Below, piece by piece: positions 6,484 to 53,370 of a DNA stretch of 64,000 nucleotides. Position numbers and translations under genes: made by a program. The stretch covers positions 1 through 64,000 of the forward strand of contig NZ_JAANMZ010000012.1 in assembly GCF_011250555.1 (NCBI RefSeq), in the 5' to 3' direction. This stretch comes from Bacillus sp. MM2020_4. GTDB taxonomy: Bacteria; Bacillota; Bacilli; Bacillales; Cytobacillaceae. Positions within the stretch are counted from its first letter, which is position 1, and each line of letters begins with the position of its first letter. The notes under the pieces are model-generated. The model ran no database searches. It had not been told where the DNA came from and worked only from the letters and a program-made list of their open reading frames with translations.

Positions 6484-7299
6484 CTATGCACGGCGCATGT
6501 AGGCACGAACTGTAATGGGTGCAAAAATCGCTACAATAATGGCTGCCCCAATGAGTGAAATTACTAGATCCCAGCCAATTGTTCCGGAATTCGCCAAATC
6601 TCTAACAGCCGTTACGAGATGTGAGATGGGATTGATTTTCACGAACCATTGTAACCAGTTCGGCATGGTATCAGCCGGAACAAATGCATTCGAAAGAAAG
6701 GTCAATGGAAAGAGGATAATCATCGAAATCCCTTGTACACTTGAAGCCGTACGAGCAATAACTCCAAAAAAGGCAAATATCCAGCTGATTGCCCATGAAC
6801 AAGCAATGACAAGTAGTCCAGCAATAACCACAGCGCCTAATCCTCCTTCAGGACGATAGCCTAATACAAATCCCATCGAAAATGTAAGTACCGTTGCGAT
6901 TGTATAACGGATCGTATCAGCAAGCAAAGCCCCTGCTAACGGGGCAATCCGGGCAATTGGTAATGACTTAAACCGGTCAAATACCCCTTTATCCATGTCC
7001 TCCCGTAATTGAGTACCCGTGACAACTGAAGTGGTGATCACCGTCTGAACAAGAATCCCTGGAATAATAATCGGTAAATAATTCTTCACATTACCAGCGA
7101 TAGCCCCTCCAAAAATATAGGTAAACATTAACGTGAAAATAATTGGCTGAAACGTAACGTCAAATAGTTGTTCAGGTGTTCGACGTATTTTCAGTAACCC
7201 ACGATAAGCCATGGTTAATGAATTTTGCACTGTCTGTTTGAAGCTAGTTTTATTTCGCAGCTGAATATCGGAAACTGACATGCTCAATTGTTTCTTCAT
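6484..7299 (-). CDS. ABC-2 type exporter permease (DrrB-like)
   Basis: A 271-aa integral membrane protein with six hydrophobic segments and the ABC-2 permease layout. The central stretch FPLTFLSNAFVPADTMPNWLQ is typical of daunorubicin-resistance DrrB-like permeases. It probably pairs with the ATPase encoded immediately upstream: in the restored frame the ATPase stop TAA overlaps this ATG by one base, which suggests translational coupling. Substrate unknown; drugs, lipids or peptides are all possible for the family. Confidence 0.88.
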   Translation of the reverse strand: MKKQLSMSVSDIQLRNKTSFKQTVQNSLTMAYRGLLKIRRTPEQLFDVTFQPIIFTLMFTYIFGGAIAGNVKNYLPIIIPGILVQTVITTSVVTGTQLREDMDKGVFDRFKSLPIARIAPLAGALLADTIRYTIATVLTFSMGFVLGYRPEGGLGAVVIAGLLVIACSWAISWIFAFFGVIARTASSVQGISMIILFPLTFLSNAFVPADTMPNWLQWFVKINPISHLVTAVRDLANSGTIGWDLVISLIGAAIIVAIFAPITVRAYMRRA

Positions 7300-8317
7300 T
7301 AAATAATCCCCCTCTTTTTATGATTCGAATCTGCTTGGCTTTCCTTTTCGCCTTCAGCTGTAATGGTCAAAAAGACCTCGTCTAAAGATGGTTTTTGTAC
7401 ACTTAGCTCAGCCAATTTGATGTCTGCTTCACGAAGGGCGACTAGCAGATCCGTAACAATATCCGCCGTTTCCATTGGTGCAGTAAAGTAATCATACCGC
7501 CTTCTGGTGACACAGCTGATGGTACTTTTAAGACTCGTTCAATAATCATTCGAGCATTGGGGATATCCTGAGTGTGTTGAATACTTAAATGCAATGATGA
7601 AGTACCAATCGATTCTTTAAGTTCATTTACAGTACCTTCTGCAACGACACTTCCATGATCAATGACAGCAATTCGATCCGCTAGTTCATCTGCTTCTTGG
7701 AGATACTGAGTAGTTAACACAACGGTTGACCCTGATTTTACTAAGCGACGAATGGTATCCCACATTTGATTTCGTGTCCGTGGATCTAATCCAGTAGTCG
7801 GTTCATCCAAGAATAAGAGTGGTGGCTGCGAGATTAAACTAGCAGCTAAATCCAGTCGTCTACGCATACCCCCTGAGAAATTTTTCAATGGACGTTTTGC
7901 AGCCTCCATTAATCCAAATTCCTCGAGTAGCTCATTTGCTTTCCGTTTTGCCTCCAGACGACTAAGCCCCAGTAATCGAGAGAAAATGATTAGGTTCTCT
8001 GTCGCACTTAGTGACTCATCGACTGAAGCATACTGACCCGTAACACCAATTAGTTGACGCACAATTTGTGCATCCTTCACTACATCATATCCAAAAATCT
8101 TTGCTGAACCCGCATCAGCTCGGAGTAATGTTGCCAACATTCTAATCGTTGTCGTCTTCCCTGCGCCATTAGGTCCCAACACTCCATAAATGGAACCAGT
8201 TGGTACCAACATATCCACTCCGTCAACCGCTCGATGATCTCCAAAGGTCTTGATAAGCCCTTTGGCCTCGACTGCAAACTTCACATTTTCTAATTTCGTT
8301 CTATCCTTATTTTTCAT
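7299..8317 (-). pseudogene. ABC exporter ATP-binding protein (DrrA-like), frameshifted near the C-terminus
   Basis: The open part (7442-8317) encodes a full nucleotide-binding domain: Walker A GPNGAGKTTT, signature NFSGGMRRRLDLAA, Walker B LLFLDEPTTGLDP. It stops early after PEGGMI. One base is missing at about 7487/7488. Restoring it yields ITFTAPMETADIV and then the DrrA-typical SVQKPSLDEVFLTITAEG tail, ending at 7299 with a one-base overlap with the permease ATG. Without the base, about 64 residues of the C-terminal domain are replaced by some 15 out-of-frame residues. It could be a real recent mutation or a sequencing error. The NBD itself is intact, so partial function is possible. The start ATG follows AGGAGGAT. 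Confidence 0.85.
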
Positions 8318-8445
8318 ATGATCCTCCTTTTAATAAACCTTCCGATAGCTGATGTTGTATTCACTCATATTTTGATTACAATTGGATTATAGACGCCATT
8401 TATGAACTGAATATGAACAAAAAAATGTTATTTTAAAACTTATGG

Positions 8446-8474
8446 TTGCAATTTAAAAAATTGCCGCATATACT
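8446..8474 (+). promoter_or_regulatory. Sigma-A-type promoter of the SDR-tetR pair
   Basis: TTGCAA (8446-8451) and TATACT (8469-8474) are separated by exactly 17 bp. The predicted transcription start falls just before the palindrome at 8485. Confidence 0.7.
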
Positions 8475-8484
8475 GTTTTAAAAA

Positions 8485-8503
8485 TGAATGAATTGTTCAT
8501 TCA
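8485..8503. promoter_or_regulatory. Perfect palindromic TetR-family operator
   Basis: TGAATGAA-TTG-TTCATTCA is a perfect 8+3+8 inverted repeat lying over the expected +5 to +23 region of the promoter. It resembles TetR-family sites such as the TGAATGA/TCATTCA half-sites of B. subtilis FadR, with one extra spacer base. The tetR gene lies directly downstream of the SDR gene, so autoregulation of the pair is the simplest reading. Confidence 0.75.
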
Positions 8504-8520
8504 AAAAGGCGGTTAAAAAG

Positions 8521-9420
8521 ATGACTGATAAATTAACAAAAAAGGAATGGAACTTGCAAGACAAATATGTTTTGATTACAGGAGCGACAAGTGGGATTGG
8601 ACTTGCGGCAGCAAAGGCCTTTGCCAGACGCGACGCAAATTTAGGGATTATTGCCAGAAATCAGCGAAAGGCGGAGGAAATTTCAACTCTATTACGGATG
8701 CAAACCAAGAAACCCATTAAGATTGATCTATTTATTGCTGATCTTTCCTCCCAAAAATCCATCCGAAAAGTTGCTGCGCAAATTCTAGAAAGCTGTCCAA
8801 GAATCGACGTTTTAGTGAATAATGCAGGCGCCTTATTCGATTCCTTTCAGAAATCCGAGGAAGGAGTGGAAATGACCTGGGCTGTTAACCACCTGGCCCC
8901 ATTTCTTCTCACTTCCCTGCTATTGGATCGTTTAAAAGAAAGTGAATCCGCACGTATTATCAATACGGCTTCACATGGTCATAAAATGATAAAAGGAGGC
9001 TTTGAGTTTGAACATGGGAATGGGGAGCATCTTTATGGGGGAATGAAAAAGGTACTAGGCGGCCCAACTATACGTTATGCACAAACGAAACTGGCCAATA
9101 TCCTCTTTACCGCCGAATTAGCGCGTCGTCTAGAAGGATCAACGATCACTGTTTATTGTTTCGACCCGGGACTGGTAGCTACAAATTTCAATCAAAATAA
9201 TGGAATGATGGCAAAGGCAACCATGGCTGTCATGAATCTTTTTTCCCGGACGCCAGAGAAAGGTGCAGACACATTAGTGTGGCTTGCCGAATTAAAAGAT
9301 ACCTCAAACCAAAGCGGCAAATATTTTGCTGATAGACAACATAAGGCACCCACTGCATTAGCAACTGATAAAGAATTAGCAAGGAAACTTTGGAACATGA
9401 GTGAGGAACAAATTCTGTAA
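8521..9420 (+). CDS. Short-chain dehydrogenase/reductase (retinol dehydrogenase-like)
   Basis: A classical Rossmann SDR with the cofactor loop TGATSGIG, the NNAG motif and the catalytic YxxxK as YAQTK. The C-terminal part resembles WW-domain/retinol-dehydrogenase-like SDRs. I chose the ATG at 8521, preceded by AAAGGCGG. An ATG at 8488 in frame would put the operator palindrome inside the coding region and lacks a ribosome site. It is followed by a TetR gene 48 nt downstream. The substrate is not deducible; regulation by the TetR protein suggests a response to a lipophilic or toxic carbonyl compound. Confidence 0.87.
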   Translation: MTDKLTKKEWNLQDKYVLITGATSGIGLAAAKAFARRDANLGIIARNQRKAEEISTLLRMQTKKPIKIDLFIADLSSQKSIRKVAAQILESCPRIDVLVNNAGALFDSFQKSEEGVEMTWAVNHLAPFLLTSLLLDRLKESESARIINTASHGHKMIKGGFEFEHGNGEHLYGGMKKVLGGPTIRYAQTKLANILFTAELARRLEGSTITVYCFDPGLVATNFNQNNGMMAKATMAVMNLFSRTPEKGADTLVWLAELKDTSNQSGKYFADRQHKAPTALATDKELARKLWNMSEEQIL

Positions 9421-38123: not shown

Positions 38124-38325
38124 TCTTCTCCCACCCCTTTTGCGGCAAACTCCTAACTAGCACGTTAGTATAAATAGTGAATATCCCCAATTTTGTTGAC
38201 ATTAAATCTCTCAAATTGTAGGAAACACTTCTACTATTATGCAGCTATATATGAAAATATTCCTACTTAGTATGAATGCCAAAAGAAGGAAACGAACACT
38301 GACCTACTAGAAATGGAATAAAACA

Positions 38326-38366
38326 GTGCCAGGCACCATCCAAATTTCTGGACCGTGCCTGGCACC
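38326..38366. repeat. GTGCCTGGCACC-family palindromes, paired copies
   Basis: GTGCCAGGCACC at 38326-38337 and GTGCCTGGCACC at 38355-38366 are each palindromic and also pair with one another. They lie between the M20 gene's 3' side and the helicase promoter region. Confidence 0.8.
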
Positions 38367-38405: not shown

Positions 38406-39608
38406 TTACTCATTTAAAAATAGCATCGCAGTCTGCGCATAAATCCTTGATGCCTCGACTAATTCTGCTAGATCAATATATTCATTGATTTGATGTGGAA
38501 TATGACGGTCACCGGCTCCTGTTGTGACAATCGGAATCCCGGCAAGGTGAAGGAATGTGCCGTCAGTTGCACCAGGTACGCCGTTATAGATGGGTTCCTT
38601 TCCGGCAACTGAACGGAAGGATTCCACACTAGCTCTGACAATCGCATCGTCCAAACTCGTTTCTGTCCATGGCCGGCTTTCAATCACTTCTAGGGAAGCC
38701 TTAAAATCTGGATCCTTGGAACGCAATCGCTCTAAAATATCCTCCATATCAACCCGTAACTGGCCGTGGTTCTGCCCGGGAACGGTACGAATATCAAGGG
38801 TACTATAACATTGGTCCGGAATGACATTGATCTGTGGCTCCCCTCTCTCAGGTCCTAAAATGATCGTTGGCGTAATGCTTGGTAACCCTAAATATGGGTG
38901 TTGTCCGACTCGCTGTTTTTCTTTCTCCTCAAGTGCCATTAGTTCACAAATAATCTGCGCCATTCTCGTATTTGGATTGATTCCAGAAAGCGGCATGGCT
39001 CCATGAGCCATTTTCCCGTAAGTGCGGATGATGGTTCTCATCGCCCCTTTTTGCGTGATACAAATCTGATTTTCCTCCGGTTCGCAGATGATGGCACCGT
39101 CTACACCTTGTGCCCAGCCACGCTTAATGAAATGTTTTATGCCGATCATCATGCCTTCCTCATCGCAGGGAACACACAAAATAATTCTTCCATTCCATTT
39201 CACGTTACTTCGTTTAATCGCATGTACCGCTGCAATCGCAGCAGATAGATTTCCTTTTGTATCGTTTGTACCTCTGCCAAACATTCTGCCGCCCTCAATG
39301 GCAGCTCCGAATGGATCATAGCTCCAGGCATCCCAGTCACCCTCTGTCACAACATCGGTATGGCCCTCAAAGAGAATCGTTTTTCCGGGTCTGCCTGAAT
39401 CAAGAATACCAATGACATTCGGCCGCCCCTTGACGACCTCTTCGATATATACCTCAAGTCCTAAGTCCTTTAGATACTCATATACATACTGCGCCGCTCT
39501 GCTTTCATTTGCCAAAGGGTCGTGCGGGCGGTAGACACTTGGAATCCGAACAAGAGCTTGCGTCAAATTTACAACTTCCTGATCATCCACATCATTAAAT
39601 ACAGCCAA
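38406..39608 (-). CDS. M20-family amidohydrolase (ArgE/DapE/N-acyl-amino-acid hydrolase type)
   Basis: A 400-aa zinc-dependent amidohydrolase. Metal ligands are visible as H in LFEGHTDVV, D in GRGTNDTKGN, the Glu pair in VPCDEEG and H near the C-terminus in DRHIPHQINEY. M20 enzymes cleave N-acyl amino acids, and N-carbamoyl-beta-alanine hydrolases are members. It is the last gene of the sigma-54-controlled ECF operon. In the proposed pathway it is the best candidate to split pantothenate (N-pantoyl-beta-alanine). TTG start at 39608 with CGGAGGG upstream. The exact substrate is inference. Confidence 0.87.
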   Translation of the reverse strand: MAVFNDVDDQEVVNLTQALVRIPSVYRPHDPLANESRAAQYVYEYLKDLGLEVYIEEVVKGRPNVIGILDSGRPGKTILFEGHTDVVTEGDWDAWSYDPFGAAIEGGRMFGRGTNDTKGNLSAAIAAVHAIKRSNVKWNGRIILCVPCDEEGMMIGIKHFIKRGWAQGVDGAIICEPEENQICITQKGAMRTIIRTYGKMAHGAMPLSGINPNTRMAQIICELMALEEKEKQRVGQHPYLGLPSITPTIILGPERGEPQINVIPDQCYSTLDIRTVPGQNHGQLRVDMEDILERLRSKDPDFKASLEVIESRPWTETSLDDAIVRASVESFRSVAGKEPIYNGVPGATDGTFLHLAGIPIVTTGAGDRHIPHQINEYIDLAELVEASRIYAQTAMLFLNE

Positions 39609-39623
39609 CTAGAACCCTCCGTT

Positions 39624-40586
39624 TTATTGATTTTTTGGTAAATCTTTATAAGCGGTAATTCCCCCGATACTATCAGCGGATTTTATCGCATTAAGAATTG
39701 CCCTTTCCATGACCATCGCTGCCAACCCGCCAATAACATCTACAGGGATTCTTTCCCCTCCAGTGGCAACAGCGAAAATTGTATCACCATCAAACATGGT
39801 GTGCGCTGGAAAAATCGTTCTCGCATATCCGTCTTGGGCCATTTGCGCCACCTTCGTTGCCTCCGCCTTCGTTAACTCGGCATTCACCGCTACTACTCCA
39901 ATGGTGGTATTTGAACCGGCAGGAATGGTGGATTGATAGTTTTGTTCGAGAAGTTTGATACTATCAAGAATCATTCCATTCTTATACGGCCCAGCTAAAA
40001 TGTCACCCGTGGATGGTTCGCGGACATCCCCAGCTGGATTAACGGCAACAATGGCACCAATCACAACACCATTTTCTAAACGGAGTGATGCACTTCCGAG
40101 TCCGCCCTTCATACAAAAGCCGAGACCGGCTAATTTACCAGCAGTTGCTCCACAACCGGCCCCATAATTGCCAGTAATAAATTTCTCTGCCGTCGCCGCT
40201 TTTGCGGCATCATATCCCATCTGTTTGTCAGGCCGCATCTTTGGGTCACCAAAAGGGAGGTCGAATAGAACAGCTGCCGGGACAATGGGTACCTTGGCCA
40301 CACCCACATCCAGGCCAATATCTTCTTCCTCTAAAAATTGCATCACACCGGAGGCGGCATCCAACCCAAACGCACTGCCGCCACTTAAACAAATACCATG
40401 GACTTTTTCAACGAGATTTATAGGATTCAATAGATCGGTTTCCCGGGTTCCGGGCGCAGAACCTCTGACGTCCACCCCCGCAACTGCACCACTTTCAAAA
40501 AGGATGGCTGTACACCCAGTAAGGGCCTGGTGATCTTCTTTATTTCCAACTTTTACACCTGGAACATCCGTGATTTGATCATTCAT
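39624..40586 (-). CDS. P1-family peptidase/amidase (DmpA-like)
   Basis: A 320-aa member of the DmpA/P1 family of self-processing hydrolases related to L-aminopeptidase/D-Ala-esterase and beta-aminopeptidases. Family marks are the start (ITDVPGVKVGN), AGVDVRGSAPGTRETDLL, GICLSGGSAFGLDAASGVM and the segment GSNTTIGVVAVNAELTK, where the nucleophile at the processing site is expected. It lies 3 nt from the ECF S-component gene and 15 nt before the M20 gene, so it probably acts on the imported compound or a derivative. It is an alternative candidate for the amide-cleaving step. Confidence 0.87.
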   Translation of the reverse strand: MNDQITDVPGVKVGNKEDHQALTGCTAILFESGAVAGVDVRGSAPGTRETDLLNPINLVEKVHGICLSGGSAFGLDAASGVMQFLEEEDIGLDVGVAKVPIVPAAVLFDLPFGDPKMRPDKQMGYDAAKAATAEKFITGNYGAGCGATAGKLAGLGFCMKGGLGSASLRLENGVVIGAIVAVNPAGDVREPSTGDILAGPYKNGMILDSIKLLEQNYQSTIPAGSNTTIGVVAVNAELTKAEATKVAQMAQDGYARTIFPAHTMFDGDTIFAVATGGERIPVDVIGGLAAMVMERAILNAIKSADSIGGITAYKDLPKNQ

Positions 40587-40589
40587 TTT

Positions 40590-41141
40590 TTAAAGATCCC
40601 TGGAAATCTTTGATTTTTGACCTTTGCCAATCTGTTTCCACGCTAATACAACTGCTAACGTAACAATGGTACCAACAATGGCTTCAGGGATTCCGTTTGT
40701 TATGCCAACTGTCCAAGCAACTCCTGGGGTTAAATAATGACGGATGACAGCCATTGTTAACACAAGGACCGTGTTTGCCAATGTCCCGATAAAGGCGGCG
40801 GCTCCCACTGCAAGGTATTCACTCTTGCGACGGATTCCAACATAGATCAGCCATGCCACTACGCCAATGAAAAGCCGGGGTAAAATCGCAACCAATGGAT
40901 CCTTAAAGAGTGGAACGGTTGCATTTAGGAAGGAAGAAATTCCAAAAATAGCTCCAACTATTAAGCCGACGACCGGTCCCTGCATTATGCCACCAATAAT
41001 CGCAGGAATGTGCATGATCGTGGCATTCCCTGCTGCCGTTGGAACAGGAATATACCCCAACCTGGTTACCCCTAGTAGAATGGCTACCGCACCCAGCACA
41101 CCTGCAATGACAATATCGCGAACTGTTAATCCCTTTTTCAT
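40590..41141 (-). CDS. ECF transporter S component (PanT-like)
   Basis: A 183-aa membrane protein with six hydrophobic segments and a short positively charged tail. The segment ATIMHIPAIIGGIMQGPVVGLIVG, followed by FGISSFLNAT, closely parallels the pattern of PanT/CbrT-type substrate-binding components. It is encoded directly after EcfT, so this is a dedicated (group I) module rather than a stray S component. Pantothenate as substrate is inferred from this similarity plus the neighbouring enzymes. Start ATG at 41141. Confidence 0.85.
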   Translation of the reverse strand: MKKGLTVRDIVIAGVLGAVAILLGVTRLGYIPVPTAAGNATIMHIPAIIGGIMQGPVVGLIVGAIFGISSFLNATVPLFKDPLVAILPRLFIGVVAWLIYVGIRRKSEYLAVGAAAFIGTLANTVLVLTMAVIRHYLTPGVAWTVGITNGIPEAIVGTIVTLAVVLAWKQIGKGQKSKISRDL

Positions 41142-41177: not shown

Positions 41178-42020
41178 TTAAAAAGGAAACGGATAAAAAA
41201 GCAGTAGGAAAGCGAATAAAAGTCCAACCAATAAAACAAGATAATCCTTTGCTAATGCTTGATACACGGAGTAGGAGCTCCTGTCGCCACCAGGTGTATA
41301 GCAGCGGGATTCCATGGCGAGAATTAAATCCTCGGCCCTAGACAAGGCGATATTAAATAACGGAATAATGATGGGAAACATTTCTTTTGTCCTTTGAATG
41401 ATTCTCCACCAGCCGCCGGTACCAAAGTCGGCCCCCCTTGACGCTTGTGCCTTCATCATTTTTTCCATCTCGATGGCGAAGGTTGGGACGAATCGAATGG
41501 CAATCGTTGTAATCAGCGAGATTTCGTGGACTGGAAAATGAATCTTCTTTAACGGACTGAGTAAGCTTTGAATGGAATGTGTTAATTCTGTGGTGGAAGT
41601 CGATAAGGTGAGAACACTGCTTAAGAAGATAATTTCAATAAACCGAACGGCTGAAACAATCACCAATCGAATACTTTCACTCGTGATGAGGATAAACCCA
41701 TAATCAACAAATACTTTGCCATCGGAAAAGAGCTGTCCTTGAAAAAGCAGCTGTAAAATGGCTAAGATAACAATAAACGGGATGGCTGGTTTCACACCTG
41801 ATAACCCATAGCTAATGGGAATTTTGGATCCCCAGAATAAATAGAGGGATAAGACTAAACCGATGGCATTCCCGATATAACTCGTATTCAGCGCAATCGC
41901 CATCACGAGAATGACAAAAGCAAGCAGCTTTATTCTCGGGTCTAACCGATGAATAAAGGAGCCGGTTGGTACGTACTGTCCAATGGTAATATTACGGGAT
42001 ATATCAAATTCGCTTGACAT
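41178..42020 (-). CDS. ecfT: Energy-coupling factor transporter transmembrane protein EcfT
   Basis: A CbiQ/EcfT-family protein of 280 aa with several transmembrane helices and the coupling-helix motifs ending in Ala-Arg-Gly (KAQASRGAD, and AMESRCYTPGG near the C-terminus). The start at 42020 (GGGAGGGG six bases upstream) is preferred to an ATG at 42053. It overlaps ecfA2 by 17 nt. It couples the S component to the two ATPases. A genome normally has another copy near rplQ/truA; this one is operon-specific. Confidence 0.92.
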   Translation of the reverse strand: MSSEFDISRNITIGQYVPTGSFIHRLDPRIKLLAFVILVMAIALNTSYIGNAIGLVLSLYLFWGSKIPISYGLSGVKPAIPFIVILAILQLLFQGQLFSDGKVFVDYGFILITSESIRLVIVSAVRFIEIIFLSSVLTLSTSTTELTHSIQSLLSPLKKIHFPVHEISLITTIAIRFVPTFAIEMEKMMKAQASRGADFGTGGWWRIIQRTKEMFPIIIPLFNIALSRAEDLILAMESRCYTPGGDRSSYSVYQALAKDYLVLLVGLLFAFLLLFYPFPF

Positions 42021-42900
42021 ATTTCGCCCCTCCCTTCCTGCCTGTAAGAACATTCAACACTTCATCAGCTGCTTCAGAGATGGAAAAGGCGTCCGTTTTT
42101 ACTTTGTATCCAAGGTCGCTTAATCGGTACAGAACTTTAACCGTTTCAGGGGTGCCAATTTGATAACGCTGCAGTTTATCTTTATCCGTAAAAATTTCTT
42201 TCGGGGTTCCTGTTAATACGTCGGTCCCATCTGCCATTACATATACCCGATCAGCTAGCATGGCCACCTCCTCCATATTGTGTGACACAAAAACGACAGT
42301 TAACTTTTCTTCCTTGTTTAACCGTTTCATTTTATCTAGTAATTCCTTCCTTGACCTTGGATCCAAACCCGCTGTCGGTTCATCAAGTACCAAAATCTTG
42401 GGTTTTAATGCAAGGATCCCCGCTAAGGCTACTTTTCGTTTCTGGCCGCCGCTTAAGGCAAAGGTCTGTCTGTCCTTCATTTCCTCAAAATCTAACCCTA
42501 CAACCGACATCGCCCATTTAACGCGCTCCCTCACCTCCTTTAATGGAAGGCCTAATTTGAAAGGCCCGTAGGCAATATCATCGCCAATAATTTTTTCGAA
42601 AATTTGGTCCTCCGGGTTTTGAAAGACAAGGCCCACCTTCTGTCTCAGCGTTTTTAAATCTACCTTTTTCTTTGACAGGTCTTCTCCATCTATGACTACC
42701 TTTCCGGATTCTGGACGCATTAGCCCATTGAAGTGCTGGATTAATGTAGACTTTCCTGACCCCGTATGGCCAATAATGGCAATGCATTCCCCTTCTTCTA
42801 CAAATAGGTTGGTTTCGTGTAAGGCGACATGCTCCATCGGGGTTCCTTTCATATACGTATGTGATAGGTTTTCAATTTCGATAATGGATCGCTTCGACAT
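42004..42900 (-). CDS. ecfA2: Energy-coupling factor ATPase (EcfA2-type)
   Basis: A 298-aa ABC ATPase with Walker A GHTGSGKST, Q-loop VFQNPEDQIFEKI, signature ALSGGQKRKVALAG and Walker B ILVLDEPTAGLDP. The FALSGGQ and GLDPR features and the C-terminal region fit the EcfA2 type. Its ATG overlaps the ecfA1 stop. Confidence 0.93.
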   Translation of the reverse strand: MSKRSIIEIENLSHTYMKGTPMEHVALHETNLFVEEGECIAIIGHTGSGKSTLIQHFNGLMRPESGKVVIDGEDLSKKKVDLKTLRQKVGLVFQNPEDQIFEKIIGDDIAYGPFKLGLPLKEVRERVKWAMSVVGLDFEEMKDRQTFALSGGQKRKVALAGILALKPKILVLDEPTAGLDPRSRKELLDKMKRLNKEEKLTVVFVSHNMEEVAMLADRVYVMADGTDVLTGTPKEIFTDKDKLQRYQIGTPETVKVLYRLSDLGYKVKTDAFSISEAADEVLNVLTGRKGGAKYVKRI

Positions 42901-43769
42901 TATCCCACCTCCTCTTTGGAGAGGTTATCCTCCTTGGAGAATTTCTCCACTTCTTCTATAAACTCCTGTTCTCGAATTAAGTCTTTTGAAAAATCAGATA
43001 ATTGACCGTGAATGACTTCGGCCATTTGGCTGACAGAGGGAACTTCTAATTGAAGTTTTTCTAATTCCTCCTTATGTTTAAAAGTTTCACGTGGCGTGTC
43101 ATCCATCACAATTTGTCCGCCCTCAATGACGATAATCCGGTCAGCTTCCGCTGCTTCTGACATATGGTGGGTAACGGTAATAATCGTCATTCCACTATTG
43201 TTCATTTTTCTCATCACCTGAAGAACTTCTTTTCGACCAAAACTGTCTAACATATTTGTTGCCTCATCAAAAACAATGCAATCCGGCTGCATGGCTAATA
43301 CTCCAGCAATCGCAACTCTCTGCTTTTGCCCCCCAGATAAATGATGGGGGGGTCGATGACGAAACGGAGACATTTTAACAACGTTTAGCGCGTCATCGAC
43401 TCTTTTTTTCATTTCTTCTCTTGGGACGCCAATATTCTCCAGTCCAAATGCAACATCTTCCTCTACGATCGTCGCAACAATTTGATTATCAGGATGTTGA
43501 AAGACGGTGCCAACAGAGCGACGAATATCCCGTTTCTTTTTTATATCCTTCGTGTTGTGGCCATGAACCCAGACGTCTCCGTCGTCAGGGGTTAAAATCC
43601 CATTAAGGTGTTTAGATAAAGTAGATTTACCTGAGCCATTGTGACCAATGATGGCCACATATTCTCCGGGAAAGATGGATAAAGAGATATTCTTCAGCAC
43701 GGATACTTTCGTTTTTTCGTTAATTTTGTAGGAAAACGATATATTTTCTAAGCGAATAATGGGTTCCAT
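42900..43769 (-). CDS. ecfA1: Energy-coupling factor ATPase (EcfA1-type)
   Basis: A 289-aa ABC ATPase with Walker A GHNGSGKST, Q-loop VFQHPDNQIVATIVEEDVAFG, signature LSGGQKQRVAIAG and Walker B CIVFDEATNMLD. A Glu-to-Asn-type change after DEAT is usual in EcfA1 proteins. It starts 26 nt after the SDR gene's stop, with no terminator between, so the ECF genes are probably transcribed with the upstream dehydrogenases. Confidence 0.93.
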   Translation of the reverse strand: MEPIIRLENISFSYKINEKTKVSVLKNISLSIFPGEYVAIIGHNGSGKSTLSKHLNGILTPDDGDVWVHGHNTKDIKKKRDIRRSVGTVFQHPDNQIVATIVEEDVAFGLENIGVPREEMKKRVDDALNVVKMSPFRHRPPHHLSGGQKQRVAIAGVLAMQPDCIVFDEATNMLDSFGRKEVLQVMRKMNNSGMTIITVTHHMSEAAEADRIIVIEGGQIVMDDTPRETFKHKEELEKLQLEVPSVSQMAEVIHGQLSDFSKDLIREQEFIEEVEKFSKEDNLSKEEVG

Positions 43770-43795: not shown

Positions 43796-44560
43796 TTAGA
43801 TTCCACGTCCTCCGTCAATATTTAGGACCTCACCGGTCACCATCTTAGCCAGATCAGAAGCTAAATAAAGTGCCCCTTTTGCAATATCCTCTGGTTGAAT
43901 TAATTTTCCCAGTGGGACACTATCTTGAAAGATCTTTTTCATTCCCTCTTCCTTTTGATCCTCATTTCCAACGAGGAACTTCCCAATCATAGGTGTATCG
44001 GCTGGGCCGGGATTAATGGCATTTACTCTAATTTGATAGGGTGCTAACTCGAGGGCTAATGCTTTGGTCAGCATAATCGCTGCCCCTTTTGATGCACAAT
44101 ACGCATTTAACCCGGGTCTCGCTCTGATACCAGCAATGGAAGCAATAGTAACAATACTTCCACTCTTTTGTTGTTTCATGATCGGAACCGCATACTTAGA
44201 GGTTAAAAAGATGGATTTGGTATTCACATTCATGATTACATCCCATTGTTCCACGGTTAATTCCTCTATCGATGTGAAGGATTGTGGAACACCGGCACAA
44301 TTAATGACAATATCCAATCCGTTATATACTTCCACTGTTTGATTCACAAGGTTTGCCACATCCGAATCATTCGTTACATCGGCTTGAATGGCCTGCACAT
44401 GGTTTACACCGGTGTCACTTGCCGCTGTTATGGCTGACTGAACATGTAAATCAGCAAACGTTACATTAGCCCCTTCATGAGCGAAAGTCTGCGCAATCGC
44501 TTTCCCCATTCCCGATCCTGCTCCAGTTACAATTGCCGTTTTTCCATTTAATATAGTCAT
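43796..44560 (-). CDS. SDR-family dehydrogenase (candidate pantoate 4-dehydrogenase)
   Basis: A 254-aa classical SDR: cofactor loop TGAGSGMGKA, ADV/NCAG, catalytic Ser in IASIAGI and Tyr-Lys in YCASKGAA, and a C-terminal NIDGGRGI. It clusters with glucose-1-dehydrogenase/FabG-like SDRs, so substrate cannot be read from sequence. Position between the decarboxylating dehydrogenase and the ECF genes fits the NAD-dependent oxidation of pantoate at C4 in the proposed pathway. Start ATG at 44560. Confidence 0.88.
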   Translation of the reverse strand: MTILNGKTAIVTGAGSGMGKAIAQTFAHEGANVTFADLHVQSAITAASDTGVNHVQAIQADVTNDSDVANLVNQTVEVYNGLDIVINCAGVPQSFTSIEELTVEQWDVIMNVNTKSIFLTSKYAVPIMKQQKSGSIVTIASIAGIRARPGLNAYCASKGAAIMLTKALALELAPYQIRVNAINPGPADTPMIGKFLVGNEDQKEEGMKKIFQDSVPLGKLIQPEDIAKGALYLASDLAKMVTGEVLNIDGGRGI

Positions 44561-44622: not shown

Positions 44623-45711
44623 TTAGATTTTAGGACTAAGGCTTAATTGAACCATTTTCGCGATAATTGCGTCCCCCATTTCAGTGGTTGTCGCCGTCCC
44701 CCTTAGGTCAGGTGTTCTTATCTTCCCTTCTACCAATACCCCTTCAATGGCATCTAGGATTAATTTCGCAACATCAGGGAGTTTAAGATGGTCCATCATG
44801 AGACTAAGGCTCCAAATAGAAGCGATGGGATTGGCGATTCCTTTTCCCGCAATGTCAGGAGCAGAACCATGGATCGGTTCAAACATGGAGGGATAGATCC
44901 GCTCGGGATTGATGTTCCCAGATGGAGCCAACCCTAATCCCCCTACTATCGCTGCCCCTAAATCTGTTAGAATATCACCAAATAAATTACTGCCCACAAT
45001 GACATCGAGTGTCTCCGGTTTAGAAATAAAATAGGTAGCAAGGGCATCAATATGGTAGAGCTGTGTTTTTACATCTGGATAACTATTCCCTATTTCATTC
45101 ACCATTTCATCCCAAAAAGGCATGGTAAAGTTAATTGCATTCGATTTTGTTGCCACCGTAAGATTTTTCTTTGCCCTTTTTTCAGCCATGGAAAAAGCAT
45201 AGTTTAATATTCTTTCAGAACCGAACCTAGTAAAAATGTTATTTTGCACAGCTAATTCATAGGGCGTTCCTTCATGAACCCGTCCGCCCATATTGGTATA
45301 CTCCCCTTCGGTATTCTCCCTAATGACAACAAAATCAAGGTCTTTATGGTCTTTATACCTTAATGGGCTTTCAATACCTTGAAGCAGTTTAATGGGCCGC
45401 AAATTCACATACTGTTGAAATTTCCGGCGAATAGGCAAAATGAGCTCCCACACTGAAATGTGATCTGGTACAGATTTGGCACCAACAGCTCCAAATAGAA
45501 TAACGTCGAAATCTTTTAATAGATCTAATCCATTTTCAGGCATCATTCTTCCATTTTGAAGATAATAATCACAGCCCCAATCAAAAGATTCAAAAGAAAA
45601 AGTCAAACCGCCGTGTATCTCTTCTACTATTTTTACTACCTTTATAGCCTCATTCATCACTTCCGGGCCAATTCCATCTCCCGGAATTAACGCAATTGAA
45701 AAGTGTTGCAA
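44623..45711 (-). CDS. Isocitrate/isopropylmalate/tartrate dehydrogenase family (candidate dimethylmalate dehydrogenase)
   Basis: A beta-decarboxylating NAD-dependent dehydrogenase of 362 aa, close to tartrate/D-malate dehydrogenases (TtuC/DmlA, B. subtilis YcsA). Features: ALIPGDGIGPEV at the start, the substrate region LRPIKLLQGIESPLR, VVIRENTEGEYTNMGG, and GLAPSGNINPE with EPIHGSAPDIAGKGIANP for NAD and metal. The start is the TTG at 45711 because AAAGGAG lies eight bases upstream; ATGs at 45732/45729 overlap that site. Dimethylmalate (2-hydroxy-3,3-dimethylsuccinate) is chemically a D-malate analogue, which suits the pathway proposal. Confidence 0.9.
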   Translation of the reverse strand: MQHFSIALIPGDGIGPEVMNEAIKVVKIVEEIHGGLTFSFESFDWGCDYYLQNGRMMPENGLDLLKDFDVILFGAVGAKSVPDHISVWELILPIRRKFQQYVNLRPIKLLQGIESPLRYKDHKDLDFVVIRENTEGEYTNMGGRVHEGTPYELAVQNNIFTRFGSERILNYAFSMAEKRAKKNLTVATKSNAINFTMPFWDEMVNEIGNSYPDVKTQLYHIDALATYFISKPETLDVIVGSNLFGDILTDLGAAIVGGLGLAPSGNINPERIYPSMFEPIHGSAPDIAGKGIANPIASIWSLSLMMDHLKLPDVAKLILDAIEGVLVEGKIRTPDLRGTATTTEMGDAIIAKMVQLSLSPKI

Positions 45712-45777
45712 CTCTATCACTCCTTTCATCAATCATTTCTATTCCCTGCATAAGATTTCCTTACCGTTGACACACGT

Positions 45778-47229
45778 TTATTCCGCGCTTTTTATTTTTA
45801 TCGCGATGTTTTTTAATTGCGTATAATTCCTTAGTGCTTCCACACCTTTTTCACGGCCAATTCCACTTTTTTTATAACCGCCAAATGGAAGTTCGACCCC
45901 ACCGGCTGCACCAAAGTCATTGATAAAGACCTGCCCGCTTTTCACTTTACTTGCAATTCTGTGTGCCCGTGATAGATCATTTGTCCAAATCCCTGTTACG
46001 AGACCATATGAAGTTCCATTTGCTAATGTAATAGCTTCCATTTCTGTTTCAAATTCAAATACAGTCAAAACGGGGCCAAAGACTTCCTCCTGAGCTATTT
46101 CACTCATTGGGGAAGCGTTTTCAATTATGGTCGGTTCAAAATAATATCCATCTTCCAACCCTTCCAGCTTTGCCCGCCTTCCACCCATGATGACACGTGC
46201 ACCTTGCTCTTTTGCTCTTTCAACCATTGCAAGTATTCGATCAAACTGCCTTTTTGAAATAATGGGGCCTAGCTCGCTGTCATGAACCCCAGGGCCTAGT
46301 TTAATTCTTTTCATTCTCTCGATTAATTTCTCCATCCATTCATCTTTAATTTTAGAATGAATGAGCAACCTTGAACCGGCAGAACATGTTTGACCCGCAT
46401 TCTGAATAATTGATCGTGTAACCCATGTAACCGCTTCTTCCATATCACAATCTGGAAAAACAATATGGGGTGATTTCCCTCCCAGTTCGAGTGTGACAGG
46501 AACAATATTTTTCGCCGCAGAGATCATTACACTTGTGCCGGTATTAACTGAACCAGTAAATGTGATGTGATTGACATCAGGGTGATTGACCAATGCTGCT
46601 CCTGCTTCTGTACCATAGCCTGTTACAACTTGTAGAGCACCTTTCAGGACTTCAATCTCGGAAAATATTTCTGCTAACGTTAAGGCCGATAGAGGAGTAT
46701 CTTCAGCAGGTTTCACCACCACTGTATTTCCAACCCCTATGGCGGCTGCCACTCCCCTTGAAGTGATCTGAAGTGGATAATTCCAAGGAATCACTTGCGC
46801 ACAAACACCCATTGGTTCACGAACCGTGTAGTCAATCACATTTGGCGCTACCGGGATGGTTTCTCCAAACATCTTATCCGCAACACCTGCATAGTACTCA
46901 AAATAGCGCGCACTACTTTCAACATCGCTTCTAGCCTGCGATAGCGGCTTGCCGGTGTCCAAGGTCTCAATTAAGGCAAGCTCATCAGATCTTTCACGTA
47001 CTTTTCGGGCAACCTCATAAAGTGCATTTCCCCTTATACCAGGTTTTACTGATTGCCATTCATTGGATTCAAAAGCATTTTTCGCCGCGGTTACTGCTTG
47101 ATGTACATCTTCCTTATTTCCCCTGGGAACTCTGGCAATTACCTCATGATTGGCAGGATTGTATGTTGGAAAAAACTCTCCAGAAACGGACTTTACCCAT
47201 TCACTATTGATATACATTTTTTGCTCCAT
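45778..47229 (-). CDS. NAD-dependent aldehyde dehydrogenase (candidate aldopantoate dehydrogenase)
   Basis: A 483-aa ALDH superfamily enzyme with the catalytic Glu in TLELGGKSP, catalytic Cys in NAGQTCSAGSRL and the IPWNYPLQ and GFGAAGG-like cofactor-site features. It is closest in style to betaine-aldehyde dehydrogenases. It is the first gene behind the sigma-54 promoter at 47325-47340. In the proposed pathway it oxidises 4-dehydropantoate to dimethylmalate. The aldehyde itself is not deducible from sequence. Confidence 0.92.
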   Translation of the reverse strand: MEQKMYINSEWVKSVSGEFFPTYNPANHEVIARVPRGNKEDVHQAVTAAKNAFESNEWQSVKPGIRGNALYEVARKVRERSDELALIETLDTGKPLSQARSDVESSARYFEYYAGVADKMFGETIPVAPNVIDYTVREPMGVCAQVIPWNYPLQITSRGVAAAIGVGNTVVVKPAEDTPLSALTLAEIFSEIEVLKGALQVVTGYGTEAGAALVNHPDVNHITFTGSVNTGTSVMISAAKNIVPVTLELGGKSPHIVFPDCDMEEAVTWVTRSIIQNAGQTCSAGSRLLIHSKIKDEWMEKLIERMKRIKLGPGVHDSELGPIISKRQFDRILAMVERAKEQGARVIMGGRRAKLEGLEDGYYFEPTIIENASPMSEIAQEEVFGPVLTVFEFETEMEAITLANGTSYGLVTGIWTNDLSRAHRIASKVKSGQVFINDFGAAGGVELPFGGYKKSGIGREKGVEALRNYTQLKNIAIKIKSAE

Positions 47230-47324
47230 TGTTAACCTCCATTTTGCCGGGCTATGAATCTTTTACGTTACGAAGCGGTCTTACCCCTTCTATCTCCATT
47301 TTAAAATCAATCTCCCTCTATATT

Positions 47325-47340
47325 TGCAATTCTTGTGCCA
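47325..47340 (-). promoter_or_regulatory. Sigma-54 (-24/-12) promoter of the ALDH-ECF operon
   Basis: Minus-strand TGGCAC-AAGAA-TTGCA is an exact match to the sigma-54 consensus TGGCAC-N5-TTGCW. It lies about 95 bp upstream of the aldehyde dehydrogenase start and downstream of an enhancer-binding protein gene. Confidence 0.9.
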
Positions 47341-47381
47341 TGATTATTAAATTCTAAAAAGTCTGAAATATAAAGAAAAAA

Positions 47382-47399
47382 CAGGGATAAAAAACCCTG
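47382..47399 (-). terminator. Terminator of the enhancer-binding regulator gene
   Basis: CAGGG / CCCTG with an 8-nt A/T loop, followed on the minus strand by TTTTTTCTTT. It isolates the regulator transcript from the sigma-54 promoter. Confidence 0.75.
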
Positions 47400-47420
47400 C
47401 TAGTAAAAACGATGTTTTGA

Positions 47421-47441
47421 TTTGCACCATTAGATTGCAAT
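47421..47441. promoter_or_regulatory. Candidate enhancer (UAS) for the sigma-54 activator
   Basis: TTTGCA-CCATTAGA-TTGCAA contains inverted TTGCA/TGCAA half-sites. It lies about 90-110 bp upstream of the -12 element, a usual distance for enhancer-binding protein sites, right at the end of the regulator gene. Confidence 0.45.
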
Positions 47442-49292
47442 TTAAAACGTTAAATTATATTCCTTTATTTTTCTCCAAAGGGTGGATCGGTCTATTCCCA
47501 GTGATTGGGCCGCTAACTTTTTATTATGATCAAATTTTTCAAGCGTTGTGAGAATGAGTTCTTTTTCCTTATTTTTTATACTATGTTTATTGGTTGTTCC
47601 TTCGGAAAACTGCCGTTTCCTTATTTTTTCAGAAAGAAATTTTGCCCCCTGAAGTCTTAAACTATCACTCTCTTCCAGAACCACCATCCGTTCAATCGTA
47701 TTCCTTAATTCACGAATATTCCCTGGCCAGTCATACTTCTGAAATAAACAAATCAATTCTTTTTCAACGGTTATAATTTTATTTTTTCTTTTGTCATTAA
47801 ACTCATCTAGGAAAGATTCCACCAGTTTAGGAATATCGGCTAAGCGTCCACGTAGAGGCGGCAATTCCAAAGCAAGCACATTTAGCCGGTAATAAAGGTC
47901 AGAACGGAATTGTTTCTCTTCAACCTCCTCCTCTAAATTTCGATTTGTTGCTGTAATAATTCGAACATCCACTGGTATGATCCGTTCTCCACCCACACGT
48001 CGAATAGTCCTTTCCTGAAGCACCCTTAATAAGAGAGCCTGAATTCTTAACGGTATCTCACCAATCTCATCTAAAAATAGGGTACCTCCGTGTGCAAGTT
48101 CAAATAAGCCGGGCTTGCCATCTTTTAGCGCACCTGTAAATGTGCCTTTCTCATATCCAAACATTTCACTTTCAAGAAGATTTTCTGGTAAAACCGCGCA
48201 GTTTACGGCTACAAAGGGGCCAAGTGATCGATGACTTGCTGAATGAATCCCTTGAGCAAATAATTCTTTACCCGTTCCAGACTCACCGGTTATTAGTACA
48301 GTTGATTCCGTTTCAGCAAATTTCCTTGCAAGTTCTTTTGCCTCCATTATTTCATGCGTTTCCCCAATAATGTCACTTAATCGATACTTTGCTTCCAAGC
48401 CATTTTGATGAAGTTTTTTACGAAGTTGTAATTCTACTTTTTGAATATCTGTAATTTCTTTAAAATTTGATACTGCCCCGACAATTTTTCCTTTGACGAT
48501 GACAGGAGACCTATTGATAACAATTTGACGCCCTCCTACAGTAGCAATATCGCCCCTTTCAATCTTCCCGGCTTCTAATACACGTAACATATCCGATTGT
48601 GGGATGAAATCCGTAATGTTTCTTCCCTTCATATCCTCTTCAACTCCCAAAATTGTTTTGGCATGTTCATTCACCAATCTAATATTCCCTGTTCTGTCAA
48701 TCGCAACAACACCATCATGTGTGGAATTGACGATCGCATCTACTTGATACCGTTCATTTAAAATTTCCTCATTTAACTTCACTAATGAGCCTGCTATTTG
48801 TAAAAAAGGAATCACAGAAGTGAAAGCAGGCTTAATAAAATGTACATTTTTAATCCTAGGGTTAGTAATGAAGCCTTTCATCCATATTGGGGCCAGGTAT
48901 ACATGATTCGGCTTCGGTCCAGTAGATTGTTTTTCTGTTACAATGGTGAGTTGAATTTCATCCTTCACCACCTGTTCTCCATTTTCTTTTCTTAACCACT
49001 CGATTTCTTCACTTGTTGTTAGAAACGAATACTCGCTTTGCTCGGGATGATCAAACAATCGCTTTATATTCTTTTTTATATCCTCTATGGTGATGGGGAT
49101 AGGGATAATAGGAAAGGTAAGACCCTCCAATTCTTTCTGAAAAATAGCAGGTGTAATAATAACCATTGGGTTCATGATCTGATCTAATATTGAATTAATC
49201 GAATAAAAACTAGCCGTTGGGTATCCCATATCCTTTAATACCTTTATCATTTGGTCTTCATATAAATCATTCATTTTATAAAGGGCTATCAA
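47442..49292 (-). CDS. Sigma-54-dependent enhancer-binding regulator (PAS-AAA-Fis)
   Basis: 616 aa. Residues 1-170 form a sensory region of PrpR-N/unknown type, 180-290 a PAS domain ([18 protein letters not shown]), and 305-545 the AAA+ domain with Walker A GESGTGKE (336-343), L1 loop GTFTGA (383-388, variant of GAFTGA) and Walker [10 protein letters not shown] Fis-type HTH ends the protein ([22 protein letters not shown]). It has no receiver domain, so it is ligand-sensing rather than two-component. It lies directly upstream of the sigma-54 promoter of the ALDH-ECF operon and is its likely activator. TTG start at 49292 behind GAGGTGATAGA. Confidence 0.92.
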
Positions 49293-49479: not shown

Positions 49480-50133
49480 TTATTTTCTAGTTTGAAGATT
49501 ATAGTATGAATTTTTGGCACGGGCATCTTTTAAGGTTACCCCCTTTAATACCGAAGCCCGAATATTTTCCTCGGCAGTATCAATCATCCACGCGGCCTCT
49601 ACTACTTGCTTTATTTTGGATGCTGGAATGGCCACCACTCCATCACCATCTCCACGTAAATAATCACCAGGACTAACCAAGACACCTCCAATCGAGACTG
49701 GTACATTTTCCTCCACAACCATTACTCGATCTTTGCCCGTTCTCATCCAATTCCCTTTACTATAAATCGGATAATTCAGCTCCAAAATGCGGTCCACATC
49801 CCGGCAAACCCCATCGATTATCGTTCCAGCAAGGTTACGTTGATGTGCTGTTAAAGTTAACAGATCACCCCAAACAGTTACATCCTTCCGCCCGCCATTA
49901 TCAATGACAACAACCGTATCCGCTTCTAGACTATCTATATAATCACCGACAGTTCCTCCTTCTACGCCTATGGGTCCATAACGGACAGTAAAAGCCCTGC
50001 CTGTCAATTGAAACGATCGCTCCAAAGGCATAATCCCCAAGCATTGGCCATTAATCCCGAGCCGATCCAATGCATCACTTATCGTCGAAGTACCAAATTT
50101 CCGTAAATGACTTAAAACCTCTGCATTTTCCAC
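49480..50133 (-). CDS. RraA-family aldolase/decarboxylase, paralogue 1
   Basis: A 217-aa protein of the RraA/4-hydroxy-4-methyl-2-oxoglutarate aldolase fold. The core GTVGDYIDSLEADTVVVIDNGG and GTIIDGVCRDVDRIL, with an Arg-Asp pair, mark the active site of HMG/CHA-type aldolases. The likely start is the GTG at 50133 (AAAGGAG upstream; a TTG at 50154 overlaps that site). It sits next to a second RraA paralogue in an acyl-CoA catabolic cluster, so retro-aldol cleavage to pyruvate or oxaloacetate decarboxylation is a fair guess. Confidence 0.8.
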   Translation of the reverse strand: MENAEVLSHLRKFGTSTISDALDRLGINGQCLGIMPLERSFQLTGRAFTVRYGPIGVEGGTVGDYIDSLEADTVVVIDNGGRKDVTVWGDLLTLTAHQRNLAGTIIDGVCRDVDRILELNYPIYSKGNWMRTGKDRVMVVEENVPVSIGGVLVSPGDYLRGDGDGVVAIPASKIKQVVEAAWMIDTAEENIRASVLKGVTLKDARAKNSYYNLQTRK

Positions 50134-50231
50134 GCCATTTCTCCTTTTGTTCAAATTTCACTTTTAAGTAGAAGCACTCCCAGAAGAGAGTGTCCCTCCA
50201 GATTTATTCTCTCTATGCGCCGTTCAGAAGC

Positions 50232-50951
50232 CTAAAGACCAATCTTTTTCATTTCTATTTCGGCCTCGGCTTGGTTGTCGAAATATCCTACATTTTCTTT
50301 TATCAGCTCTGACCTCAAATGAAAGATATCTACCGTCAATTCACCATTGGCTATTCTATTTCTTGAAATTTCTTCGTCCAAAACTCTCTTTTCCGATAGG
50401 TGAGAAACGGTGGTCAAATCAGCCCTTTTCACAACAACTACTCCATCATCATCAGCCATTATCAAGTCCCCTGGCAGGACCACTATGCCCCTGCATACGG
50501 CCGGGGAATTGACCCAGCCGCCTTTTATTTTAGTTGTTCCTTCTGAGTAGATAACCTTGCTCCAAATGGGGAACCCCAGTCCTCTGATTTGTTCTGCATC
50601 ACGGATGCCAGCATTAATAATTACTCCTTGGATCCCCTGCTCTATCATGGCTCTAACCATGAGCTCTCCAATCATGCCTGAAACACTCTCACCAATTGTT
50701 GTGATCACCAGGACATCACCAGGCTGACAAACCTCAAGGGCAGCATGAATCATTAAGTTATCGCCTGCATGACAGACCACAGTAACTGCAGGACCGCATA
50801 TCATCTTCCCGTTCAATAACGGCATTAATCCGTACTCCATCAGGCCTTTTTTTCCTTGTGCCTCATATACCGTAGAGACATCGAACTCTTTAAACTTATG
50901 AATGATTTGTGAACTTGGCCGTTCGAAATTCTTAACAATATAAGGATTCAT
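50232..50951 (-). CDS. RraA-family aldolase/decarboxylase, paralogue 2
   Basis: A 239-aa RraA-fold protein with GDVLVITTIGESVSGMIGE, the Arg-Asp segment VIINAGIRDAEQIRGLGFPIW and VVLPGDLIMADDDGVVVV. It resembles 4-carboxy-4-hydroxy-2-oxoadipate aldolases. It differs clearly from its neighbour, so the two may form a heteromer or act on different stereoisomers. GAGGTGAGATCA precedes the ATG. Confidence 0.8.
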   Translation of the reverse strand: MNPYIVKNFERPSSQIIHKFKEFDVSTVYEAQGKKGLMEYGLMPLLNGKMICGPAVTVVCHAGDNLMIHAALEVCQPGDVLVITTIGESVSGMIGELMVRAMIEQGIQGVIINAGIRDAEQIRGLGFPIWSKVIYSEGTTKIKGGWVNSPAVCRGIVVLPGDLIMADDDGVVVVKRADLTTVSHLSEKRVLDEEISRNRIANGELTVDIFHLRSELIKENVGYFDNQAEAEIEMKKIGL

Positions 50952-52991: not shown

Positions 52992-53370
52992 CTATCTCCC
53001 CAGAAAATGAGGGTCTCTTTTTTCAAAAAACGCATTTACGCCTTCTTTGAAATCTTCTGTTTGACTGCATAAATCCTGTCCTTGGGCTTCCAACTCCAAT
53101 AGAATTTTTAATTCGCGGTTTACATGCTGATTCATAATTTTTTTGGTCATTCCGACTGGAATAGATGGTTTTTTTGCCAACTTCTCTGCAAATTCGATTG
53201 CTTCTGCTAATAGTGTTTCAGGCGGCAATACCCGATTAACGATTCCAATTCGGTGCGCTTCTTCTGATGATATCCTCTCCCCCATAAATTGGTATACATA
53301 TCAAACATTCATAATACGATTGGCTGGTCGGATATTTGCAAATGCCCCAACCACCTGAGGCCTCAAGTGT
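52992..53370 (-). pseudogene. Enoyl-CoA hydratase/isomerase, 5'-truncated remnant
   Basis: An open frame of 97 codons (52992-53285) encodes only the C-terminal third of an enoyl-CoA hydratase (GERISSEEAHRIGIVNRVLPPE through ending DPHFLGR). In-frame text continues upstream as VGAFANIRPANRIMNV but is interrupted by a TGA near 53301 and runs into the next gene's 3' end. The N-terminal two thirds, including the oxyanion-hole segments, are absent. Non-functional remnant; its hydratase step may be covered by the MaoC protein. Confidence 0.75.

Follow-up and report, generated by a model that had tools for sequence, protein, structure and literature searches.

Background

Bacterial degradation of pantothenate (vitamin B5) has been known biochemically for decades from Pseudomonas, where pantothenase is followed by pantoate, aldopantoate and dimethylmalate dehydrogenases; the textbook route leads from pantothenate through pantoate, aldopantoate and 3,3-dimethylmalate to 2-oxoisovalerate. 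In Bacillus subtilis, operons that depend on the sigma-54 factor SigL have activators of their own, namely bkd with BkdR, roc with RocR and aco with AcoR. Here we analyze a sigma-54 promoter element in Bacillus sp. MM2020_4, located on the minus strand of the first 64,000 nt of contig NZ_JAANMZ010000012.1 (the window, by which we mean this whole stretch of DNA). It precedes a nine-gene operon encoding an aldehyde dehydrogenase (ALDH), a TTC-type dehydrogenase (TTC), a short-chain dehydrogenase (SDR), the energy-coupling factor (ECF) components A1-A2-T-S, an S58 hydrolase and an M20 hydrolase, closely spaced and on one strand. Judged from sequence, the element is probably a genuine SigL promoter of an operon for pantothenate uptake and catabolism, and this bacillus from soil seems to take up vitamin B5 and to break it down as food.

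Each of the described systems resembles part of this locus. Gene families in the window fit every step of the Pseudomonas pathway, matched by enzyme type and not by homology, but the window operon is Gram-positive and combines them with an ECF importer and sigma-54. With the SigL operons of B. subtilis it shares a dedicated activator, upstream sites (putative here), a sigma-54 promoter and a catabolic operon, and its proposed product, 2-oxoisovalerate, enters bkd; unlike them, it encodes a vitamin ECF importer. The S component is of the same family as that of Lactobacillus ECF-PanT (4rfs, 6zg3; PMC7755397), with the binding Arg and Asn conserved and Phe in place of Trp. Whereas the Lactobacillus ECF module is shared among vitamins, the one in the window is dedicated and lies inside a catabolic operon. 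PanU/YhfU of B. subtilis (PMC11487621) likewise represents ECF pantothenate uptake in a bacillus, a likeness of function. Pathway and promoter class are already known. The literature searched, in which coverage of subscription journals was thin, neither pairs them with a vitamin ECF importer nor describes pantothenate catabolism as controlled by sigma-54. A 2025 survey of sigma-54 regulons (PMC12316311) contained no match for energy-coupling or vitamin.

The promoter element and its conservation

The minus-strand sequence at 47340-47325, TGGCACAAGAATTGCA, matches all 11 fixed bases of the -24/-12 pattern and, having GG at -24 and GC at -12 with the correct spacing, agrees with TGGCAY-N5-TTGCW. 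It is the sole perfect match to TGGCAC-N5-TTGCA in the 64,000-nt window, and the stricter pattern TGGCAYRN4TTGCW has one match there versus 0.06 expected by chance. Base 7 of the element is A; in other sites of the same genome G is commonest at this position. Transcription is predicted to start near 47314, 12 bases past the C of the -12 element. An earlier note on this DNA, made from the sequence alone, had described an exact -24/-12 match between a PAS-AAA-Fis activator gene and the operon, and this is confirmed.

The note had also proposed that sigma-54 and the activator control the ALDH-ECF operon, and comparative genomics supports this. Copies of the S protein numbered 33 (74-100% identity) among 193 genomes of the family, to which 80 named loci were added; loci (L numbers below) were counted after removal of duplicates, and the element was scored when it lay no more than 200 bp upstream of a gene of the operon. 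The -24/-12 element is present at 25/25 loci with a linked activator versus 2/52 loci without one (Fisher P 3e-18, uncorrected for relatedness). Activator and promoter are paired in this way in Neobacillus, Siminovitchia, Pseudalkalibacillus, Fictibacillus and Brevibacillus, with different first genes. ALDH opens the operon of Neobacillus and Siminovitchia, and TTC that of Fictibacillus, Pseudalkalibacillus and some Brevibacillus; six Brevibacillus loci start with ECF A1, and there the promoter directly precedes and would drive the ECF genes. Since the first gene varies, the promoter accompanies the activator and not the ALDH gene. An ECF module under sigma-54, which the note had called unusual, in fact recurs in several genera. 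The two exceptions, L139 and L147 from Brevibacillus, have the activator deleted, with an apparent short helix-turn-helix (HTH) remnant recognized by eye; these loci may either have lost the regulator or be regulated in trans.

The sigma-54 regulon of the host genome

We surveyed the genome (4.9 Mb, 150 contigs) by pattern and family searches. TGGCAYRN4TTGCW has 23 matches genome-wide versus 1 for the reversed-pattern control; many of these strict sites precede genes and some are intragenic. The sigL gene is present (PF04552 match on contig C96, E 4.4e-60), together with about ten activator genes. Other sigma-54 sites precede a glutamate dehydrogenase gene and a phosphate butyryltransferase gene of the bkd-operon type with another activator gene nearby, and further sites precede agmatinase/arginase-like and pyrroline-5-carboxylate (P5C) dehydrogenase-like proteins (translations judged by eye). 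The excess of strict sites over the control and the genes behind them together indicate a substantial sigma-54 regulon, and the remark in the earlier note that bacilli have few sigma-54 promoters holds less well for this genome. The link that it drew to bkd fares better: phosphate butyryltransferase is typical of bkd operons, and a 2-oxoisovalerate product would join the bkd pathway; the likely ptb gene of that pathway carries a sigma-54 site here.

The activator and its putative sites

The AAA+ domain of the activator (PF00158) has the Walker A motif GESGTGKE and GTFTGA, a variant of GAFTGA, and is accompanied by a Fis-type HTH (PF02954). PrdR is its best NCBIfam match; at 465.2 bits, far under the equivalog cut-off of 795, assignment as PrdR was rejected, and the window operon is unrelated to proline reductase. 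A structure model of the N-terminal domain gave PAS-type matches only, among the matches listed. Brevibacillus activators align to the window activator from PAS onward only; because this region is common to the long and the short activators, PAS is the likelier sensor, and we infer that the inducer is sensed through it.

Putative upstream activator sites are found in tandem (Table 1), and in four Brevibacillus loci they take the form of perfect TGTTGCANNTGCAACA palindromes. Mismatches in these sites, summed over 26 loci, amount to 249, the lowest sum among 200 shuffles being 299; for the window alone P is 0.18. At L139 and L147 (~7100-7320), the palindromes, a CodY-like box and the sigma-54 promoter persist before the ECF genes.

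Gene content of the operon

An amidohydrolase and all three dehydrogenase types stand together in one operon (Table 1), and we propose the pantothenate route because amidohydrolase, SDR, ALDH and decarboxylating hydroxyacid dehydrogenase fit the textbook chemistry. The closest solved structure to TTC is 3flk. The S58 protein matches ThnT (E 1.5e-50) and contains the Asn-Thr self-cleavage/nucleophile motif in SNTTIGVV; its closest relatives in the PDB are nylon-oligomer hydrolases.

Table 1. Features of the locus in order of transcription, with the proposed role of each gene product
Feature	Position	Strand	Basis or remark
Activator: N-terminal domain, PAS, sigma-54 AAA+, Fis-type HTH	47442..49292	-	Sigma54_activat + PAS + HTH_8
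Putative upstream activator site 1, GTTTTAAATTGCAATC	47433..47448	-	weak alone; overlaps activator stop codon; position common to relatives
Putative upstream activator site 2, TGGTGCAAATCAAAAC	47414..47429	-	weak alone; significant across locus set; 89 bp upstream of -24
Intrinsic terminator 3' of activator gene, before promoter	47380..47401	-	terminator search
Sigma-54 promoter, -24/-12 = TGGCAC-N5-TTGCA	47325..47340	-	pattern matches; conservation at activator-bearing loci
Aldehyde dehydrogenase (ALDH); proposed aldopantoate to 3,3-dimethylmalate	45778..47229	-	family match; step inferred
TTC-type (tartrate/isopropylmalate) dehydrogenase; proposed dimethylmalate to 2-oxoisovalerate + CO2	44623..45732	-	TIGR02089 above cut-off; step inferred
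Short-chain dehydrogenase (SDR); proposed pantoate to aldopantoate	43796..44560	-	family match; step inferred
ECF ATPase A1	42900..43769	-	TIGR04520 above cut-off
ECF ATPase A2	42004..42900	-	TIGR04521 above cut-off
ECF T component	41178..42053	-	PF02361
ECF S component, PanT-like	40590..41141	-	PF12822; PanT 4rfs E 7.7e-13; R89 + N123 invariant
S58 (P1/DmpA/ThnT family) hydrolase; proposed pantothenate release from pantetheine-like compounds	39624..40586	-	PF03576; step inferred
M20 hydrolase; proposed pantothenase	38406..39608	-	TIGR01910 above cut-off; distribution in relatives; step inferred
Putative terminator, operon end	38321..38341	-	terminator search

Operon variants in relatives

A second form of the operon occurs in Neobacillus relatives (L076, L079, L082 and L083). 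It has a GntR-looking regulator, an amidase-family gene after S58, and neither sigma-54 site nor M20; its TTC, SDR and ALDH share only 46-59% identity with the window proteins. In L075 (~6500-7000) the operon is in decay: TTC is truncated, SDR and ALDH are absent, and ECF, S58 and amidase are kept. Many Neobacillus (L086-L100) have a lone ECF A1-A2-T-S set that lacks the hydrolases, the dehydrogenases, the activator and the sigma-54 site and often adjoins a queT-looking gene; such sets probably serve plain vitamin uptake. In L073, from a genome of the same species (G141), ECF A1 is split between two reading frames (127 and 157 aa; reverse-oriented, ~7790-8664), owing to either a frameshift or a sequencing error.

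Which hydrolase is the pantothenase

Wherever TTC, SDR and ALDH occur together, at 23 distinct loci, M20 is present or, in the four GntR-type operons, replaced by the amidase, whereas S58 is absent from 2/23 of these loci. S58 also stands beside the type III pantothenate kinase gene coaX in L182 and in Clostridioides difficile, with no pantoate genes seen there. This distribution favors M20 or the amidase as the pantothenase, and we consider it reasonably likely that one of them has this role while S58 acts in the manner of ThnT, releasing pantothenate from pantetheine-like compounds. The opposite assignment, in which S58 is the pantothenase and M20 acts elsewhere, for example on the beta-alanine side or on peptides, would account for S58 being common to the M20-type and the amidase-type operons. 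We regard it as unlikely, since the two loci without S58 keep M20 and all three dehydrogenases, and since destruction of pantothenate would make little sense next to its kinase at loci without pantoate genes.

Substrate of the operon

Several observations point to pantothenate as the substrate. The significant PDB matches of the S protein are two PanT proteins, in which R95, N131 and W64 (L. brevis numbering) are important for pantothenate binding (PMC7755397). The equivalents of R95 and N131 (R89 and N123 here) are invariant in 85/85 S proteins, and the W64 position is Phe in 85/85. Four contigs of Anaerolineae and one metagenome-assembled genome of Bacillota have coaX 3' of the S gene, and a C. 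difficile record has the gene order biotin ligase, P1 (S58) peptidase, ECF S, coaX, with S58 52% and S 43% identical to the window proteins. In one Fictibacillus locus (L138), genes for a CoA-acylating semialdehyde dehydrogenase (MMSDH) and a class III aminotransferase follow M20; they look like genes of the beta-alanine-degradation type, as needed for the use of beta-alanine. PanT similarity, coaX neighbors and these beta-alanine-type genes thus support the route from pantothenate to 2-oxoisovalerate that the earlier note had suggested. The host itself carries panB and panC, and therefore pantothenate uptake need not serve auxotrophy.

The promoter could be real and yet serve an operon for another N-acyl or beta-peptide-like compound, with TTC acting on D-malate or tartrate. 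S58 and M20 do belong to peptidase families, the nylon-oligomer hydrolases are the nearest structures to S58, TTC exceeds the tartrate dehydrogenase cut-off, and the S protein, besides having Phe in place of Trp64, was above the cut-off of none of the NCBIfam S families. It would then have to be coincidental, though, that two PanT binding residues are invariant, that coaX adjoins the S gene in both Anaerolineae and C. difficile, that beta-alanine-type genes occur in Fictibacillus and that the three dehydrogenase types suit pantoate chemistry, and we find such a substrate improbable.

Least credible of all is a chance match, with transcription of the operon starting at a sigma-A promoter or running on from the activator gene: a single match to an 11-base pattern per genome is not rare by itself, but the element is conserved with the activator across genera and before differing first genes, a terminator separates the activator from the promoter, and 47150-47520 yielded no promoter of the sigma-A type.

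The C. difficile locus surfaced in a plasmid search with the S protein, which found no close operon. Its record, filed as a plasmid (L190; P1 peptidase, ECF S and coaX at 6826-9356), carries ftsH, tilS and lysS and is probably a chromosomal piece, given these housekeeping genes.

Proposed mechanism and significance

For a SigL-controlled pantothenate operon, the following sequence of events can be proposed. The PAS-AAA-Fis activator would sense a compound of the pathway and bind the tandem sites ~90-110 bp upstream, for which the locus set argues and the window alone weakly so. It would then remodel SigL-RNA polymerase at the promoter, so that importer and enzymes are expressed under a tight switch. 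Pantothenate or pantetheine would enter through the PanT-like ECF complex; S58 would trim pantetheine-like compounds to pantothenate, and M20 would split the latter into beta-alanine and pantoate. SDR, ALDH and TTC would convert pantoate successively to aldopantoate, 3,3-dimethylmalate and 2-oxoisovalerate, the last of which may pass into the metabolism of branched-chain amino acids or into the bkd route. Taken as a whole, a complete B5 catabolic system, with M20 (the amidase in GntR-type operons) as pantothenase, a ThnT-like S58 feeding it and a dedicated sigma-54 activator, the vitamin serving as a source of carbon and nitrogen, is in our view the probable reading.

Some findings weigh against it. 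PanT W64 is replaced by Phe in all the relatives seen, which leaves room for another specificity of the S protein. The families to which TTC, SDR and ALDH belong are broad. Counts of related loci, as these are, do not stand for independent events, and the putative activator sites are insignificant when the window is taken alone.

The pantothenase of bacterial pantothenate degradation has also been treated in a 2023 paper, in which the identity of the protein was stated to be unknown (PMC10393543). The present locus gathers candidates for all degradation steps, an importer and a regulator in one operon of culturable bacilli and, if our interpretation is true, supplies gene candidates for pantothenase and for the three pantoate-degrading enzymes. 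A vitamin ECF importer under sigma-54 in several genera would follow the logic of eating a vitamin, not of saving it.

Other regulatory signals and neighboring genes

In an alignment of all loci, the column consensus equals a CodY box, AATTTTCAGAAAATT. Near the window promoter the best match to the box AATTTTCWGAAAATT has 5 mismatches, which is chance level, and because of this CodY control was dropped for the window and no such claim is made. In six Brevibacillus loci (L135, L140, L142, L144, L161 and L172), AATTTTCWGAAAATT occurs with 1-2 mismatches 30 to 16 bp upstream of -24, which suggests repression by branched-chain amino acids; Fictibacillus has a weaker box (2-5 mismatches). We regard CodY control as likely for Brevibacillus and as possible for Fictibacillus.

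Riboswitch control was also rejected, an Rfam scan of eight relatives having returned two preQ1 riboswitches only; the preQ1 riboswitch of L090 lies directly before a QueT-like gene (by eye). Elsewhere in the window, an ORF of 97 aa at 52992-53285 resembles the C-terminal part of enoyl-CoA hydratase and is possibly a frameshifted or truncated gene. Upstream of the activator, at 49480-50951, there are two adjacent RraA-like genes (by eye), without counterparts in the loci of relatives.
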